A stretch of 64,000 nucleotides of DNA from Methanoculleus caldifontis (GTDB lineage Archaea; Halobacteriota; Methanomicrobia; Methanomicrobiales; Methanoculleaceae): the NCBI RefSeq assembly GCF_032842345.1, contig NZ_WBKO01000002.1:82208-146207 (forward strand), in the 5' to 3' direction. Under the pieces are notes generated by a model. It searched no databases. It saw only the letters and a list, made by a program, of their open reading frames with translations, and was not told where the DNA came from. Below, piece after piece: positions 11,316 through 18,709 of the stretch; position 1 is the first letter of the stretch, and each line of letters starts with the position of its first letter. Position numbers and translations under genes: made by a program.

Positions 11316-12152
11316 ATGGCACGAAGAATCCCGGCATATGGGATCAGGGCGCCGAACTCCTGCATCCTCGCGGAGAACGTCCTCCGGAACGCGGCCGAAC
11401 CGGACGAGGAACTCCGGTTCGTGCTCAGCCCCGGCGCCGAGGAGGGCATGGATGCCGTGGCAGAGAAGTTCGGGTATACCCTGGAGGTCGGACGGAGCGG
11501 CGACGCCGTGGAGGCGCGGATGGTCCCGAACGGCAGAACGATGCAGGAGGTCGACGTTACGGGAGACACCTGCCCCGGCCCGGCGATCACGGTCGGCAAC
11601 CTTCTTTCGTCGCTCCCGGTCGGGGAGCGGCTGAAGGTGAACTGCAAGAACCGTTCCTCGCTCGACGACATCGCCCGTGCGGTCAAGTCGACCGGCTCCC
11701 GGGTCGTCGGGGAGGGGACCAATGGGGAGCGGCACTACCTGATCGCGGAGAAGGCGGAGCGGCCGGCGGAGGGGGTGGTCGTAGCGAACCGGGACGCCGT
11801 GGTGATCGTCCAGAGCAACGGCATCGGTAACGCCGAGCGGGCCTACGCGACGTTCCTCTTCTCGAAGGTGGCGCTCTCGATGGGGAAGAAAGTGATCGTT
11901 TTCCTGCTCATGGACGGCGCGAGCATCGCGAAACGTGGGGCCACTATGGGCGTGAAGCACCCGGCCTTCGAGCGGCTCGACCGGCTCATGGACGAGGCGA
12001 TCGGAGCCGGAGCGGCGATCTATGTCTGCGAGATCTCGGCACAGTTCCGGGGGATCGGCGAGAGCGACCTCGTTCCCGGCGTGAAGATCGCAGGGGCCGC
12101 GACCTACCTCGACCTCGTCAGCAACCCGGCCCATGCGGTTGTGAACTTCTGA
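11316..12152 (+). CDS. TusA-like / TusA / DsrE fusion protein
   Basis: This 278-residue protein joins three sulfur-carrier folds. Residues 75-145 are a TusA domain with DVTGDTCPGPAITVGNLLSS, whose Cys86 in the CPGP motif would carry persulfide. Residues 5-60 look like a degenerate copy: APNSCILAENVLRNAAEPDE keeps a Cys16 but not the CPxP, and ends with EKFGYTLEV as TusA domains do. Residues about 155-278 are a DsrE-like domain (VIVQSNGIGNAERAYATFLF, GKKVIVFLLMDG, YVCEISAQF). In known systems, TusA and DsrE relay sulfur between desulfurases and acceptors; here the relay is probably intramolecular. It sits between DUF169 and a membrane protein. Confidence 0.88.
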   Translation: MARRIPAYGIRAPNSCILAENVLRNAAEPDEELRFVLSPGAEEGMDAVAEKFGYTLEVGRSGDAVEARMVPNGRTMQEVDVTGDTCPGPAITVGNLLSSLPVGERLKVNCKNRSSLDDIARAVKSTGSRVVGEGTNGERHYLIAEKAERPAEGVVVANRDAVVIVQSNGIGNAERAYATFLFSKVALSMGKKVIVFLLMDGASIAKRGATMGVKHPAFERLDRLMDEAIGAGAAIYVCEISAQFRGIGESDLVPGVKIAGAATYLDLVSNPAHAVVNF

Positions 12153-13425: not shown

Positions 13426-14175
13426 TCATCGTTGCGGGGCGCCGAGCAGCGCGGCAACCCTCTCCGGATCGTCCGTGTAGACATGGAGGAACCCGGCGGG
13501 TTCCAGCTTCACTCTGACGTAGCCGGGATACCGCAGACCGATCAGGGCGCGATAGAGCCACTCCAACATAAACACCGTCCAGCCGACCGCCAGGAGAACC
13601 TGAAAGCCGAGATAAGGGTCGGTAACAGGACCGCCCGGGTAGCGCATCAACCCGTTCCCTACGGTGGCAAAGAACATCACTGCAGCCATGAGGATCAGGA
13701 GCAGTGCGGATGCCCACTGGGGTATGGGCAGGTAGGGCTGTTTCACCTCGACCGACCGGATCGTATCCTTTCCAAAGACAAGTGGCCGGGCACGCGATCT
13801 CCGGACGATGACGGAGTTTCCGGAGGATTCTACTACGGTTCGATACGGATCGAAGCAGATGCGCCATGCGGCCCACGCCAGAAGGGAGACGGCCAGGGAG
13901 GTAAAGGTGAGCCCGGGCCACAGGGAGGGGATCAGGATGGATACCACGAGGAGGAGAAGGAAAACCAGGACAGCGAACGGCATCAGCACAAAGAAGCGAG
14001 GACTGGTGTACTCCACGAATACATCCTCCACCACCTCCCGGCTGCTGTCCGCCTCCATCCCGGTCTCAACCTCATCGCCCGGCGCGGCGTACCGCCGCCG
14101 GCAGGCTCCGGCCGCCGCTGCGTTCGGGCACCAGCCCATCCACCGGCGTATCGCTTCAGCGAACCTCATCGACAT
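13426..14175 (-). CDS. GWCP-tag membrane protein A (DUF1673-like)
   Basis: The start is set by GGAGG nine bases before ATG and gives a 249-residue protein with MSMRFAEAIRRWMGWCPNA at its N-terminus. After a basic, probably disordered linker (ACRRRYAAP) come two membrane helices (about 60-100), a globular strand-rich segment (SVIVRRSRARPLVFGKDTIR), two more helices and a C-terminal TDDPERVAALLGAP. The last motif recurs in protein C. The globular part resembles bacterial PH-like domains of small membrane proteins. It is the last gene of the operon and overlaps the upstream gene by 10 nt. The family name is from memory of Methanosarcina DUF1673 proteins with the same N-terminal tag; function is unknown. 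Confidence 0.8.
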   Translation of the reverse strand: MSMRFAEAIRRWMGWCPNAAAAGACRRRYAAPGDEVETGMEADSSREVVEDVFVEYTSPRFFVLMPFAVLVFLLLLVVSILIPSLWPGLTFTSLAVSLLAWAAWRICFDPYRTVVESSGNSVIVRRSRARPLVFGKDTIRSVEVKQPYLPIPQWASALLLILMAAVMFFATVGNGLMRYPGGPVTDPYLGFQVLLAVGWTVFMLEWLYRALIGLRYPGYVRVKLEPAGFLHVYTDDPERVAALLGAPQR

Positions 14176-14651
14176 GCGGATGCCTCCCCACCGAAGTTTG
14201 CACGGTAGATCTCCTTCCGGTGGAAAAGGTAAATCACCATGATGATGATCCCGCCGACAAGCGTCGCCGCCCCCCAGGTCAGCGGCCGCCAGGTGACGAT
14301 ATCGCCAAGCAGCGTCTCCCTCTCGAAGCTGCTCCCGGCGCGGATACTCTGCGCATCGTAATACACCGCAACGGCGGAGAGGACGACGAGAAGCGGGAGG
14401 AACTCCCGCTGGTAGACGACCGGGAAGAGCCATGCGAGAGCAATGAGGATCAGCAGCATGTTCTCCTGGTAGCCGCTCCGGTCTCCGCCTGCAGTGCCAG
14501 CCGGCTCCGGGGCAGGGTTTGGCCCCGGGTTCCTTCCCTTCCAGGCATTTTCGTAGCCCGCTTCCGCGCTCGCGCGCCGGACGGGTCTGACGGCGTCGGC
14601 GTTCGGGCACCAGCCGAGTTTCTTCCGGATATACTCCAGAAATACTGTCAT
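14166..14651 (-). CDS. GWCP-tag membrane protein B
   Basis: This 161-residue protein begins MTVFLEYIRKKLGWCPNADA, the shared tag, followed by a linker rich in Pro and Gly (RNPGPNPAPEPAGTAGG) and three or four membrane helices in residues 65-145. Unlike A and C it lacks the TDDPERV tail. It overlaps protein C by 4 nt and protein A by 10 nt, so translation is coupled. No activity can be named. Confidence 0.76.
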   Translation of the reverse strand: MTVFLEYIRKKLGWCPNADAVRPVRRASAEAGYENAWKGRNPGPNPAPEPAGTAGGDRSGYQENMLLILIALAWLFPVVYQREFLPLLVVLSAVAVYYDAQSIRAGSSFERETLLGDIVTWRPLTWGAATLVGGIIIMVIYLFHRKEIYRANFGGEASACR

Positions 14652-15358
14652 CCGGCTACCCCCAGCATTCGGGCAACCCGTTCGGGGTCATCGGTGTAGA
14701 TTGTGGCGATCTTCTTCTTTGTCGTTATCGTCAGGGTTCGCGGGTAATGTGTCCGCACGTAAGTGCGGTAGAAGATCACGGGGAAGAAGACCGCGCCGCC
14801 AAGCCCGAAGATAAACCGCATGGAGGTCGGGTTATCCCATCCGTGGTATATACCGGCGGCCGCCGATACGAGAAGCGCCGCCAGCGCCGCCAGCGCCGTC
14901 GCAAGGAGCCAGGAGGGGGCGGGGAGTTTGTTCTCGTTCACCTCCGCCTTCACGACGGCACTCTTCGGGATGACGACGGGCCGAAAGAGCGGTCGCCTGA
15001 TGGTGATCGTCTCTGAAGATATCTTGATGTGGGCCCTTCGCATGACCCCGTACAACTCCGCACCGGAGAAAGCCAGCAGAAGAGCCAGCAGGATAAGGCG
15101 CCATGCAGAGGTTGTCACAGCGAGGCATACGATGAACAGAGCGCCGGCAACAATCAGAATAAGGTACATTGCCGGGGTGCCGATCGGGCCGTAGTCAACC
15201 AGTGCACCCTCCACCACCTCCCGGCCCCCCTCTCTCGCCGTACCGACTCCGACCTCGCCCTCCGGCGCGGCGTATCGCCGTCTGCAGGCTCCGGCGGCTG
15301 CCGCGTTCGGGCACCAGCCCATCCATCTCCGTATCGCCCCGGCGAATCTCATCAGCAT
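14648..15358 (-). CDS. GWCP-tag membrane protein C (paralogue of A)
   Basis: This 236-residue protein starts MLMRFAGAIRRWMGWCPNA and shares with A the linker ACRRRYAAP, the order helix pair / strand domain (KISSETITIRRPLFRPVVIP) / helix pair, and the tail YTDDPERVARMLG. The two therefore arose by duplication. The tag is predicted to be cytoplasmic because it is followed by many Arg residues. It overlaps D by 7 nt and B by 4 nt. Confidence 0.79.
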   Translation of the reverse strand: MLMRFAGAIRRWMGWCPNAAAAGACRRRYAAPEGEVGVGTAREGGREVVEGALVDYGPIGTPAMYLILIVAGALFIVCLAVTTSAWRLILLALLLAFSGAELYGVMRRAHIKISSETITIRRPLFRPVVIPKSAVVKAEVNENKLPAPSWLLATALAALAALLVSAAAGIYHGWDNPTSMRFIFGLGGAVFFPVIFYRTYVRTHYPRTLTITTKKKIATIYTDDPERVARMLGVAG

Positions 15359-15963
15359 ACGGGCTCCTCCCGCGTCGCCGCATCCAGGGCATACATCGAC
15401 CCTTTCTCTGCGATCAGGGTAGTGCGGTGCCGCCGCTCCCAGAGGAGCGTGACGCCGTACTGGGCCCAGCCGAAGAGGCTCAAGGCCAGCGTGAACCTGA
15501 CGATCCAGCCGGACATACCGCTCAGGACAAAATAACCAATAAAGGCGACGAGAATAACGGCGGCTGCCGGCATGCTCAGGCGCCGGATGATGCGCAGTCT
15601 TTTACTCATGTTGGCCCGGATGAACTCACCGGCAACAACCCGCGCATACTGCTTCCGGCAACCGAGCAGGAAGCCGATGAACCCTCCCACCCCGATGCCG
15701 AGGCCCGTCCACAGGGTCGGGTACCCCGGAGTATCCTCGATCAGGAGAAGTGCTGCCGCTGCCGCCGCTGAGAAGGCTACCGCTGTAACCAGCAGCTGGT
15801 TGTGGTAGCGGTTCCACCAGCCGGGCCCGGTCCGGGAGAGGCCGTCCCCTCCGCCCGGCGCCGCGACCGTCGCCGGATGCACCGCTGGATTCACCCGCAT
15901 CGATCCTGCCATGGGGCACCAGCCCATCCACCTCCGTATCGTCTCGGAGGCCTTCATTATCAT
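15352..15963 (-). CDS. GWCP-tag membrane protein D
   Basis: This 203-residue protein starts MIMKASETIRRWMGWCPMAG. A Gly/Pro-rich linker follows, then a helix pair (QLLVTAVAFSAAAAAALLLI and LWTGLGIGVGGFIGFLLGC) and a second pair near residues 130-175, ending with WERRHRTTLIAEKGSMYALD. It is a close paralogue of E: about 120 bp (15690-15810) are nearly identical to 16294-16413. It overlaps E by 4 nt and C by 7 nt. Confidence 0.79.
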   Translation of the reverse strand: MIMKASETIRRWMGWCPMAGSMRVNPAVHPATVAAPGGGDGLSRTGPGWWNRYHNQLLVTAVAFSAAAAAALLLIEDTPGYPTLWTGLGIGVGGFIGFLLGCRKQYARVVAGEFIRANMSKRLRIIRRLSMPAAAVILVAFIGYFVLSGMSGWIVRFTLALSLFGWAQYGVTLLWERRHRTTLIAEKGSMYALDAATREEPVC

Positions 15964-16565
15964 GCGCGTTCACCCTCCGTTGCCATATCCAGGGTATATA
16001 CCGACCCCCACTCCGCGATCATGATCGCCCGGTGCCGTCGCTCCCAGAGGATCGTGAGGCCATACCAGGTCCAGAAGATGAGGCTTGCGCCCAGCACGAG
16101 CGCGATAACCCGGTCGAACATCCCGCCCAGAACAAGATACGCCACACCGACAGCGAAGACAACGGAGAGCACCGGCACCTTCAGATACTGAACAATGCGC
16201 TGTCTTCGGGTCATGTTCTCCCTGCGGAGCTCGCCGGCTGCAACCCGCGCGTACCTGGAGCGGTAACTGAGCAGAGAGCCGAGGAGCGCTCCTACCCCGA
16301 TGCCGAGGCCCGTCCACAGGGTCGGGTACCCCGGAGCATCCTCGATCAGGAGAAGTGCTGCCGTTGCAGCCGCCGAGAAGGCTACCGCCGTAACCAGCAG
16401 CTGGTTGTGATGGCGCCTCCACCACCCGGGTTCGACCCGGAGGAGGGCATCCTGCCCGCCCGCCGTTGCGACTGTCGCCGGCCGCACCGCGAGATCCGGT
16501 CGCATCGATCCAGTCATGGGGCACCAGCCCAGGTATGCCCGGATCGTCTCCATAAAAGGCATCAT
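15960..16565 (-). CDS. GWCP-tag membrane protein E (recent duplicate of D)
   Basis: The start MMPFMETIRAYLGWCPMTG is used because GGGAGATGGT precedes it and because gene F starts the same way; an upstream extension has no family similarity. The 201-residue protein follows D throughout: paired helices, a polar loop with RRENMTRRQRIVQYL, a second helix pair, and WERRHRAIMIAEWGSVYTLD at the end. Strong nucleotide identity with D in the first helix pair indicates recent duplication or gene conversion. It overlaps D by 4 nt. Confidence 0.79.
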   Translation of the reverse strand: MMPFMETIRAYLGWCPMTGSMRPDLAVRPATVATAGGQDALLRVEPGWWRRHHNQLLVTAVAFSAAATAALLLIEDAPGYPTLWTGLGIGVGALLGSLLSYRSRYARVAAGELRRENMTRRQRIVQYLKVPVLSVVFAVGVAYLVLGGMFDRVIALVLGASLIFWTWYGLTILWERRHRAIMIAEWGSVYTLDMATEGERA

Positions 16566-16689
16566 ACCATCTCCCGGATTTTTTGTCTGCCCGCTGCCAT
16601 TTCCACCAAAATGGATTTGTTGTGGATTCGCACCCAGAATATGTCCCGGACGGGTGTGCAAACCAGATCCATCGTCCCATGAGTTATCA
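16566..16689 (-). other. Spacer carrying a remnant of a regulator-gene end
   Basis: This is the only non-overlapping junction in the operon. Reading the minus strand, the 18 bases CCGGGAGATGGTATGATG before protein E are identical to the junction where the regulator gene ends in front of protein F, including the codons for REMV and the stop. The rest of the spacer does not match the regulator. It looks like the scar of a duplication that copied the junction along with a tag-protein gene. Confidence 0.55.
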
Positions 16690-17451
16690 TCAATCTGTTC
16701 CCTCCAGTGTGCGTCGCCGTTCCCAGATGTAGAAGATGGGAAAAGAAACGATACCAATAAGCACGATTGCCTGGAGGAGGGGGACAATAGGATACCCCAA
16801 TGCTAGGTAGCGCAGAAGAAAGATCATGGCTACTATGAGGTAGAAGACAACTGATCGCGCAACGGTGACGCGTTGAACACCACCGTCGGTGAAGACAATG
16901 CGTGTCAGGAACAGGCTGATGACGATAAGGACGGGAAGCCAGTAGATCTGGCTGATAGAGTACGCAAGGGATGTGTAGAGGTAGATTAGGAAGATTATAG
17001 CGAGAAGGACGGCATCGAACACTTTCTCGATGGCAGTTCCTCTCCGCTTCGTTTTCTTCTCTCTGTTTCTTGACCCGAGGGCGTGATGGAGGATGCTCAC
17101 AGGATTGGGATCGGTCAGATGCTCTTTTCGCCTGTACCACACCACGGTGCAGAAGACTACTACAGTGATCGCCAGTGGCAGGGGAAACAACAGAAATGCC
17201 GGTATTGGGAGATAGCCAGTCGTAATGACGAAAGCAGTGATGATGACCAAGATCCAGAAGACTGCAGTTGAGCGCCAGAATTCTTCTTTGACGATGGAAT
17301 CGATCTTCATACTTATACCGCCTATGCGCCGTTGGCCGTCATGTGGAGTGTCCCCGCGCATGCCGGGTCCCGGCTGCATCTGCCGATGGATCTGCCCCTC
17401 CGCGGGGCACCAGCCCAGGTATGCCCGGATCGTCTCCATGAGGGGCATCAT
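16690..17451 (-). CDS. GWCP-tag membrane protein F
   Basis: This 253-residue protein begins MMPLMETIRAYLGWCPAEG and overlaps the regulator gene by 4 nt (ATGA). After a linker it has two membrane helices (about 62-105), a cytoplasmic basic loop (RNREKKTKRRGTAIEK), and four more hydrophobic segments to the C-terminus, ending WERRRTLEGTD. Its base composition in the interior (more A+T than the neighbours) differs from the rest of the operon, which may mean that a foreign or faster-evolving body was joined to the common N-terminal tag. Confidence 0.78.
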   Translation of the reverse strand: MMPLMETIRAYLGWCPAEGQIHRQMQPGPGMRGDTPHDGQRRIGGISMKIDSIVKEEFWRSTAVFWILVIITAFVITTGYLPIPAFLLFPLPLAITVVVFCTVVWYRRKEHLTDPNPVSILHHALGSRNREKKTKRRGTAIEKVFDAVLLAIIFLIYLYTSLAYSISQIYWLPVLIVISLFLTRIVFTDGGVQRVTVARSVVFYLIVAMIFLLRYLALGYPIVPLLQAIVLIGIVSFPIFYIWERRRTLEGTD

Positions 17452-17894
17452 ACCATCTCCCGGAGTTTCGCAAAGAGTTCGTCGGCCATACGGGTCGGGT
17501 CGTCGGTCTTCGTGAGCGTAATCCCCAGCTCGTCCGCGTAGTTCCAGAGGAGTTCGATGCATTGGGTGTAGCGCCGGCACGCGCCGCAGTCGCCCTCGTG
17601 CTCGTACCAGACCTGTACCCCGCGGTCTGCCGAGATAAAGACGATCGCAGCCGTATCGAAGGGAACGGAACGGCCGAAGAGGACGCCTTTCTCCGCGTTC
17701 AGGCGCTCGACCTCGATCTGGTTCGCGTGCGCCATCTCGACGAGCGTCTCCTCGACCTTCCGGTCCATGGCAAGCAGCGCCTTCGAGACCGCCTGGCGGG
17801 ATATGCTGAAGCGGTCTGCGATATGGATGTTGGCAAGGCCGCTGCGGCGGAGTTTCCAGAACGCGAACTGCCTGTCGTCCAGGGAGAGAGGCAT
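17448..17894 (-). CDS. HTH regulator leading the GWCP operon
   Basis: This 148-residue protein has an N-terminal helix-turn-helix (LANIHIADRFSISRQAVSKA, residues 20-39), a helical linker, and a C-terminal sensor-like part with VSADRGVQ-type strands and the cluster CGACRRYTQC (Cys103, 106, 112), which could bind a metal or an Fe-S cluster or act as a thiol switch. It is the first gene of the six-protein tag operon and is coupled to it by ATGA. The palindrome between its TATA box and start codon suggests autoregulation. The start ATG is likely at or next to the transcription start (leaderless). Confidence 0.82.
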   Translation of the reverse strand: MPLSLDDRQFAFWKLRRSGLANIHIADRFSISRQAVSKALLAMDRKVEETLVEMAHANQIEVERLNAEKGVLFGRSVPFDTAAIVFISADRGVQVWYEHEGDCGACRRYTQCIELLWNYADELGITLTKTDDPTRMADELFAKLREMV

Positions 17895-17896
17895 AC

Positions 17897-17916
17897 GTCA
17901 ACATTGGCGGGTTGAC
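17897..17916. promoter_or_regulatory. Operator-like dyad of the GWCP operon
   Basis: GTCAAC and GTTGAC form 6-bp arms separated by 8 bp. The dyad fills the space between the TATA box and the regulator's start codon, the typical place for an archaeal repressor. The best candidate to bind it is the HTH protein encoded next to it. Confidence 0.6.
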
Positions 17917-17922
17917 TATATA
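17917..17922 (-). promoter_or_regulatory. TATA box of the GWCP operon
   Basis: TATATA lies about 25 bp before the regulator ATG on the minus strand, so the transcript would begin at or within a few bases of the start codon. Confidence 0.6.
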
Positions 17923-18078
17923 GGTGATTCGATCTATTCCCTCTCAAACTTATCTGTGAACGCGTCCGGGTGCCGGGAGAGACCGGCATCCCCGCCGCTA
18001 CCTTTTCTGCTTATGGAAACGCTCTGGACCACGTATACAGCCGCACAAAAGGGAAGCCTTAACTATTCGTAGATCACT

Positions 18079-18114
18079 AGAGTGATTGGTCAATCCAGAT
18101 TGACCGGTCACTCT
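18079..18114. promoter_or_regulatory. 36-bp operator of the TetR-aldo-keto reductase operon
   Basis: Two 17-bp arms around a CA centre match in 15 of 17 positions. Each arm includes a 10-bp site of the form TGAYYGGTCA (TGATTGGTCA at 18083 and the perfect palindrome TGACCGGTCA at 18101), 18 bp apart. It ends 16 bp before the TetR start codon. Two dimers of the TetR protein binding one face of the DNA would fit the spacing (inference). Confidence 0.75.
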
Positions 18115-18130
18115 AACGAGGCACACCCGT

Positions 18131-18709
18131 ATGGCCGAAGACAGGAACGATAAGAAGACAGCCATCGCCGCCACGGCGGTCAGGCTCTTTACGGAGAGGG
18201 GATTTCACGGCACCCCCACGTCGCTCATCGCGCGCGAGGCCGGCGTCTCGAACGGGACCCTCTTCCACTATTTCCCGACAAAAGAGGAGCTCATCAACTT
18301 CGCCTACTACGAGATCAAGAGCCGGATGGCGGGAGAGATCGGCGGGGGAGTCGAGGAAGAGCGGACAGACAGGGAGAAGATGTGGAGAATGTGGCGCAAC
18401 GCGATCCTCTGGGGAGTCGATCATCCCGACGAGTATCTCTTCGTCCAGCAGTTCTGTTCGTCCCCGTTCATCAGGAAGCTGCCCCCCGAGGAGATCCTGA
18501 AGAACGCCCCGGCCGCATTCGAGGTGCTTGCCGGGACCATCGAGAAGAGCTGCCTGAAGGGCATGCCGATCGAGGTTGCCTTCTCCGTCATATGCTCTCC
18601 GATCGATGCGGTTGTCAGGTCGATCGTCAACTCGGACGGAGACCTCGATCGGGACCGGCTGATCGACACTTCGTTCGGAATCGTGTGGAGAGGCCTGACG
18701 GGCGAGTAA
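18131..18709 (+). CDS. TetR/AcrR family transcriptional regulator
   Basis: This 192-residue protein has the TetR DNA-binding domain at residues 8-55, with the recognition helix in LIAREAGVSNGTLFHYFPTK. The helical C-terminal domain (residues 60-190) would bind an inducer and form the dimer; it holds two Cys (QQFCSSPF, EKSCLKG). It is first in an operon with an aldo-keto reductase, and the large dyad in front of it suggests that it represses both. The inducer is probably an electrophile or aldehyde handled by the reductase (inference). Confidence 0.92.
   Translation: MAEDRNDKKTAIAATAVRLFTERGFHGTPTSLIAREAGVSNGTLFHYFPTKEELINFAYYEIKSRMAGEIGGGVEEERTDREKMWRMWRNAILWGVDHPDEYLFVQQFCSSPFIRKLPPEEILKNAPAAFEVLAGTIEKSCLKGMPIEVAFSVICSPIDAVVRSIVNSDGDLDRDRLIDTSFGIVWRGLTGE

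Follow-up and report, generated by a model that had tools for sequence, protein, structure and literature searches.

A 64,000-nucleotide stretch of Methanoculleus caldifontis DNA (contig NZ_WBKO01000002.1; hereafter the window) contains an operon in which a gene for a helix-turn-helix (HTH) protein is followed by six genes, T1–T6, all on the minus strand, whose membrane protein products share an N-terminal tag ending in GWCP. What does such a tag bind, when the membrane bodies behind it differ? Based on comparisons of the operon across archaea, the most likely shared partner of the tag is the HTH protein itself. We regard as fairly probable a circuit in which the HTH protein is a self-repressor, the tag is its docking peptide, and the membrane proteins act back on the operon that encodes them.

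All six proteins carry the N-terminal MGWCP-type motif that was named for DUF1673. The motif was recorded in 2014 under the description "Membrane protein expansion in Methanosarcina, MGWCP motif, DUF1673" (Makarova et al, 2014; PMC4158269), with DUF1673 corresponding to PF07895 and arCOG06827 in supercluster SC.00027 (PMC4158269), and the arCOG update, which assigns four arCOGs to this family of membrane proteins, describes it as uncharacterized (PMC4390880). The excerpts of these two accounts name neither a function nor a regulator or operator, and mention no variants of the tag and no unrelated bodies (PMC4158269, PMC4390880). Within the open-access literature searched, which sets the limit of the search, no report of the regulator, the operator, the tag codes or the unrelated bodies was found.

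The tag and the membrane bodies

Each of T1–T6 starts with a helix that ends in GWCP; in gene order, the tags read MMPLMETIRAYLGWCPAE, MMPFMETIRAYLGWCPMT, MIMKASETIRRWMGWCPMA, MLMRFAGAIRRWMGWCPNA, MTVFLEYIRKKLGWCPNA and MSMRFAEAIRRWMGWCPNA. The first-pass annotation had described the motif as IRxxxGWCPxA. IRxxxGWCP was indeed present in all six proteins, but the alanine two places after the proline was found in only four. The whole 2.6 Mb genome contained 20 matches to GGNTGGTGYCCN, of which six, those of T1–T6, were in-frame N-terminal tags and the other 14 were not. The codons of the motif vary synonymously (GGC/GGA/GGG/GGT, TGC/TGT and CCG/CCC/CCA/CCT), hence selection acts at the protein level. 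The genome-wide match count and the synonymous variation ruled out a chance or repeat artefact, and on the same grounds an element acting at the DNA level. The tag helices differ widely within a single operon, and in the alignments of body clusters 0 and 1 (described below) nearly all invariant columns lie inside the tag.

For the comparison of the bodies, the tag was removed from 382 tagged proteins from approximately 140 loci and the remainders were grouped by BLAST, which yielded 13 multi-member clusters and seven singletons with about 2 to 8 predicted transmembrane (TM) segments. The window bodies belong to four of these clusters (Table 1). T2 and T3 were 60% identical (E-value 3e-60) and T4 and T6 31% identical (E-value 3e-22), while no other pair of T1–T6 bodies gave a BLAST E-value below 0.01. 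Profile comparison with hhalign did not join the four window clusters to one another; it did relate clusters 1, 3 and 6. A single homologous body family was thus rejected at the profile level, although clusters 1, 3 and 6 are related. The earlier description of six differing bodies under one tag was right in that there is no single family, but T2/T3 and T4/T6 are paired and the window holds four families, not six.

The DUF1673 identity, which the first-pass annotation had suggested, proved correct. With a gathering cut-off of 30.4 bits, PF07895 matched T2, T3 and T6 at 42.0, 48.6 and 35.1 bits, respectively. T4 (26.3 bits) and T5 (24.5 bits) fell below the cut-off, with matches confined to the N-terminal tag region, and T1 had no match to this model. 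T1 and the cluster 2 bodies lie beyond the reach of the Pfam model or are matched by the tag alone. Sequence searches of the PDB with the bodies returned no clear relative. The AlphaFold2 model of T6, with a predicted local distance difference test score (pLDDT) of 81.6, starts with the tag helix, which a disordered linker connects to beta strands. Two TM hairpins interrupt these strands, a helix closes the C terminus, and the strand order is suggestive of PH domains. Many of the top Foldseek matches of this model were PH domains, but weak ones (E-value above 0.2), and bPH_6 matched only three of 58 members when T4/T6-type bodies were scanned.

Two side observations concern the tag in other loci. 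Loci that seemed to lack a tag were accounted for by contig ends (L078, L150), by stop or frame damage (L093), or else by variant tags, namely GRCP in L041 and L077, LWCP in L092, and VLCP in L106. A single 477-amino-acid open reading frame (L055:7823-9256) carries two GWCP motifs and is apparently a fusion of two tagged proteins.

The HTH protein and its operator

At the level of the class, the HTH gene was present in 74 of 75 genomes with DUF1673 and absent from 134 of 157 others (Fisher p 1e-38, to be taken only as a guide since the genomes are related), a strongly positive outcome for the co-occurrence that the first-pass annotation had proposed to look for. HTH loci without a DUF1673 match had GWCP genes just downstream, with tags that, in the genomes inspected, were too diverged for PF07895 to detect. 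As a rule, the first tagged gene and the HTH stop codon share an overlap of 1–4 nucleotides. Pairs of HTH gene and tag recur in Methanomicrobia, Methanosarcina (Methanosarcinia), ANME-2 and Methanoperedens, and the named records with this pairing were from Methanosarcina, Methanoperedens, ANME-2, Methanoregula and Methanolinea; many of the named Methanomicrobiales records are identical to genomes of the first set.

The HTH protein is better conserved than the bodies, complete copies being 78–91% identical to that of the window within the genus and approximately 52–70% across the order. Its AlphaFold model (mean pLDDT 91.7) shows two short helices, a long helix (residues 33–57), four strands and two helices. 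This order of parts may correspond to that of the Tfx protein EnfR (PDB 8HNO), with two short helices, a long stem helix and an alpha+beta head of about 85 residues, but the order within the head differs, with four strands preceding two helices in the window model. TIGR00721 matched 45 of 49 members and NF053597 (EnfR) 18 of 49, every one below the cut-off. Based on these sequence comparisons, we describe the protein as divergent and Tfx/EnfR-like, and call it Tfx-like without filing it as a Tfx family member. EnfR is a solved Tfx member and a dimeric repressor acting on a pseudo-palindromic operator; it lacks a recognised effector domain, and an antirepressor of unknown identity is proposed by its authors, as stated in the part of that account consulted here (PMC10570040). 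A further difference is an H-x3-C-x2-C-x5-C insertion in the window regulator, whereas the same part of the account reports no cysteine site for EnfR (PMC10570040).

This insertion bears out the earlier remark that an HTH protein with a cysteine cluster heads the operon. Its three cysteines were conserved in 129 of 129 regulators and its histidine in 127 of 129. The ligand spacing is identical to that of cluster N5 of NuoG, HxxxCxxCxxxxxC (PMC11677225), and the corresponding model, PF10588, matched 29 of 49 regulators (best E-value 2e-4). The site differs from N5 in lying in a small regulator and not in a complex I subunit, and cluster binding is predicted. The regulator probably holds a His-Cys3 iron-sulfur (Fe-S) site, which may serve as a redox or iron site.

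Alignment of the sequences upstream of the HTH genes revealed an operator, which in the window is the perfect inverted repeat GTCAAC-N8-GTTGAC (Table 1). An A/T-rich TATA-like element was present at the same position as the window TATA box in nearly all aligned loci. Since the TATA box lies so close to the start codon, the mRNA of the operon is probably leaderless. The operator thus occupies a position, between TATA box and start, that is typical for the action of a repressor, which suggests repression. The perfect operator was found in 81 of 97 promoters of type A, the regulator subfamily of the window, mostly 2 nucleotides before the ATG. The element was also found in 77 of 78 promoters from the named records, many of which come from genomes already in the first set. 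Methanosarcinia share the element. The window operator is the sole exact copy in its genome. Within the genus, the exact operator occurred in 28 of 28 genomes with the HTH gene and in none of seven without it, almost always once per genome; G046 and G076 had two copies, each with two full HTH genes. There is thus one matching operator per regulator, the pattern that a dedicated autoregulator would be expected to leave. The promoter of the regulator itself bears a specific palindrome overlapping the initiation region, as autoregulated repressor operons do. Taken together, autoregulation of the operon by the HTH protein is well supported by these sequence patterns, with the HTH protein as the presumed ligand of the operator.

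In the proposed circuit, the first gene of the operon would encode a Tfx/EnfR-like repressor that forms dimers and probably has a His-Cys3 Fe-S site; this repressor would bind GTCAAC-N8-GTTGAC between TATA box and leaderless start and repress its own operon. The operon would also supply unrelated membrane proteins with a common N-terminal cytoplasmic helix ending in GWCP, and this helix would dock on the head domain of the repressor. Through the tag, a membrane protein could hold the repressor at the membrane or alter its DNA binding according to the state of the body, and the output of the operon would follow the amount or state of the membrane proteins. We infer operator binding, repression and contact between tag and HTH protein, together with the sign of the feedback and the signal. 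Membrane-coupled autoregulation is already known as a kind. The Mlc repressor is sequestered at the membrane by the glucose transporter EIICB. The circuit proposed here would be alike in that a membrane protein keeps a repressor off DNA, but the two systems are non-homologous, many unrelated membrane proteins would share one short docking tag here, and the only exact operator of the regulator in the genome is that of its own operon. The antirepressor suggested by the EnfR authors fits the tagged membrane proteins as partner, so that the circuit offers a candidate for what was predicted for Tfx-type repressors.

Whether the cysteine of the tag becomes an added ligand of the His-Cys3 cluster or takes the place of an existing one, with docking gated by redox state or iron, is a more speculative matter, and we consider it doubtful. 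If the tag cysteine did ligate the cluster, the operon would represent modular archaeal signalling in which many interchangeable membrane sensors share one Fe-S repressor by means of a circuit-specific docking code of four residues. The probable metal site points to Fe-S sensing by a regulator of methanogens and anaerobic methane oxidisers. The MGWCP motif and DUF1673, expanded yet unexplained since 2014, would become a testable circuit of regulator, operator, docking tag and variable membrane outputs.

Two matched codes and the competing explanations

Other operons are led by a second HTH subfamily, type B (CIEFIWD). They occur chiefly in Methanoregula-like genomes and frequently lie near a type-A operon. 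Type-B promoters carry the operator GTAAAT-N8-ATTTAC (31 promoters), and type-B tags have the form G-L-C-R-K-x-P (GLCRKPP). In Methanosarcina, the operator combines an A half-site with a B half-site into an asymmetric hybrid, GTCAAC-N8-GTTTAC (L176, L178, L179, L182, L183, L184, L186). For both types, the second position was allowed by the tag finder to be any of W, L, F, Y, M and I, and five spurious open reading frames were excluded from tag scoring by inspection. The second position was W in 263 of 263 type-A tags, and L in 54 and F in one of 55 type-B tags, with C in all 318. HTH type and tag type agreed in 318 of 318 genes (263/263 for A and 55/55 for B). In six loci (L069, L070, L072, L073, L133, L138), A and B operons are near neighbours within one genome, and either kind keeps its own operator and tag spelling.

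The agreement persists when bodies move between the codes. On the cluster 2 tree, strongly supported branches require five or more switches between the codes, and two type-B members each are found in clusters 1 and 5; after a body crossing, the tag always fits the local regulator (clusters 1, 2 and 5). Regulator positions that separate A from B lie in the recognition helix (32, 35, 38) and in the Cys site and the following helix (107, 108, 115, 116), with a few more in the stem and the C-terminal helix. An acidic residue at position 108 arose twice on the tree, each time together with a basic residue after the CP or CR of the tag.

Several points weigh against a docking circuit built around a Tfx-like repressor. 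The window regulator scored 15.0 bits with TIGR00721 against a curated cut-off of 60.25 bits (best member E-value 5e-6), and its best PDB matches by Foldseek, although EnfR chains, were weak (TM-score 0.33–0.36, probability 0.82–0.87). The A/B split of the regulators is a single event, and the agreement of regulator, operator and tag across it counts as one observation; due to this, the 318/318 agreement is weak evidence when taken alone, and the independent support is the repeated body crossing together with the second origin of acidic 108. Body crossing could itself be mechanical, through recombination just downstream of the tag, and not selected. Two first genes have GRCP for GWCP (L041, L077); the HTH gene of L077 is broken, suggesting joint decay there. 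Direct docking of the tag on the HTH protein is a proposal drawn from sequence patterns.

The tag might instead dock or assemble with another shared partner, for instance a redox protein or membrane scaffold from another locus, with the HTH protein only controlling transcription. A short conserved cytoplasmic helix with GWCP on unrelated bodies would fit any common partner, and the tag–HTH contact is itself putative. However, the tag is confined to operons led by this HTH gene (six of six in its own genome), and its spelling follows the HTH subfamily, not the species, with both types in one genome (L069, L070, L072, L073). Another partner would need two versions linked to the two HTH types, and we regard it as unlikely. 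An "address tag" that specifies a place in the cell was not supported over docking on the regulator. The broader idea of the first-pass annotation, a common binding element for a shared partner with varied bodies, is supported by the sequence patterns: the tag is borne by 13 multi-member clusters, four of them in the window, and its W and C are conserved independently of the bodies.

The operon could also be a conflict or defence system in which variable membrane effectors are silenced by a conserved regulator, as suggested for archaeal dark-matter islands. Fast-evolving variable membrane bodies beside a conserved local regulator would agree with this, and arCOG06827 appears among the common genes of such islands in the excerpt of that survey (PMC4158269). 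However, 28 of the 35 genomes in the genus carry the operon, their regulator being 78–91% identical to that of the window, and the operon showed neither a nuclease gene nor any other gene of known defence function. A defence role thus seems improbable, and would in any case be compatible with the docking circuit, which concerns the wiring and not the purpose.

It is very unlikely that the bodies are one fast-diverging family with the tag as its slowest part and without separate function: the Pfam model covers tag and body in T2, T3 and T6, hhalign joins clusters 1, 3 and 6, and bodies evolve fast, but the other clusters are unrelated by profile comparison and differ in length and TM number, W and C in 263/263 tags cannot be leftover similarity, and tag type tracks the regulator across body crossings. 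Gene conversion or cassette exchange at the 5' ends, making the likeness of tags and their match to the regulator mechanical, has similarly little to recommend it: a 65-bp repeat, 94% identical, surrounds the T1 and T2 tags, the low-G+C T1 cassette occurs in 10 loci, and the tag DNA of T1 resembles that of T2 a little more closely within genomes (0.87) than across them (0.81), but synonymous codons vary where G, W, C and P do not, tag helices diverge widely inside one operon, conservation spans two archaeal classes, and recombination probably moves bodies without explaining the upkeep of the motif.

For the docking circuit, the natural A and B versions make specificity testable by swapping three tag residues or a few regulator residues, and neighbouring A and B operons in one genome provide a natural pair for such tests.

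Gene order and neighbouring features

Table 1. Operon features in the window, numbered from its first nucleotide (aa, amino acids; nt, nucleotides).
Feature	Position	Strand	Remarks
TATA box CCTATATA	17917-17924	minus	23-30 nt upstream of HTH start codon; read from sequence
Operator GTCAAC-N8-GTTGAC	17897-17916		perfect inverted repeat between TATA box and HTH start, 2 nt before ATG
HTH regulator gene	17448-17894	minus	148 aa; type A; divergent Tfx/EnfR-like, putative autoregulator
H99-x3-C103-x2-C106-x5-C112 codons	17559-17600	minus	predicted Fe-S (or other metal) site
Direct repeat, copy 1	17404-17468		HTH 3' end and T1 tag; 94% identical to 16518-16582
T1	16690-17451	minus	253 aa; tag and about six-TM body (cluster 7); low-G+C cassette
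T1 tag MMPLMETIRAYLGWCP	17404-17451	minus	
Direct repeat, copy 2	16518-16582		upstream end and T2 tag; partner of 17404-17468
T2	15960-16565	minus	201 aa; DUF1673-type body (cluster 0); tag 16518-16565
T3	15352-15963	minus	203 aa; DUF1673-type body (cluster 0); tag 15913-15963
T4	14648-15358	minus	236 aa; cluster 1 body (PH-like with TM hairpins, tentatively); tag 15308-15358
T5	14166-14651	minus	161 aa; cluster 5 body (mostly two predicted TM segments); tag 14604-14651
T6	13426-14175	minus	249 aa; cluster 1 body; tag 14125-14175

The junctions from HTH–T1 through T5–T6 measured -4, +124, -4, -7, -4 and -10 nucleotides, respectively, in line with the earlier count of five overlaps in six junctions, with a single gap. 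This gap always follows T1 (124–127 nucleotides), and the T1 body has 50–57% G+C inside an operon of 61–64% G+C, flanked by copies of the HTH-end/tag junction. T1 therefore looks like a cassette that entered at the HTH–tag junction, and recombination at the tag probably helps to swap bodies. The cassette was found in ten loci (the window at 16518-17468, L036, L037, L038, L044, L046, L047, L049, L099 and L101). An initial view of the insertion as recent was softened, since these ten loci carry T1 with the same gap and low G+C, which makes the insertion old in the genus.

Two further features lie outside the operon. An open reading frame at 11316-12152 appears by eye to join a TusA-like (TCPGP) part to a DsrE-like part. 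Inverted repeats at 18065-18120, just before a divergent TetR-like gene (18131-18709), are probably the operator of that gene itself.

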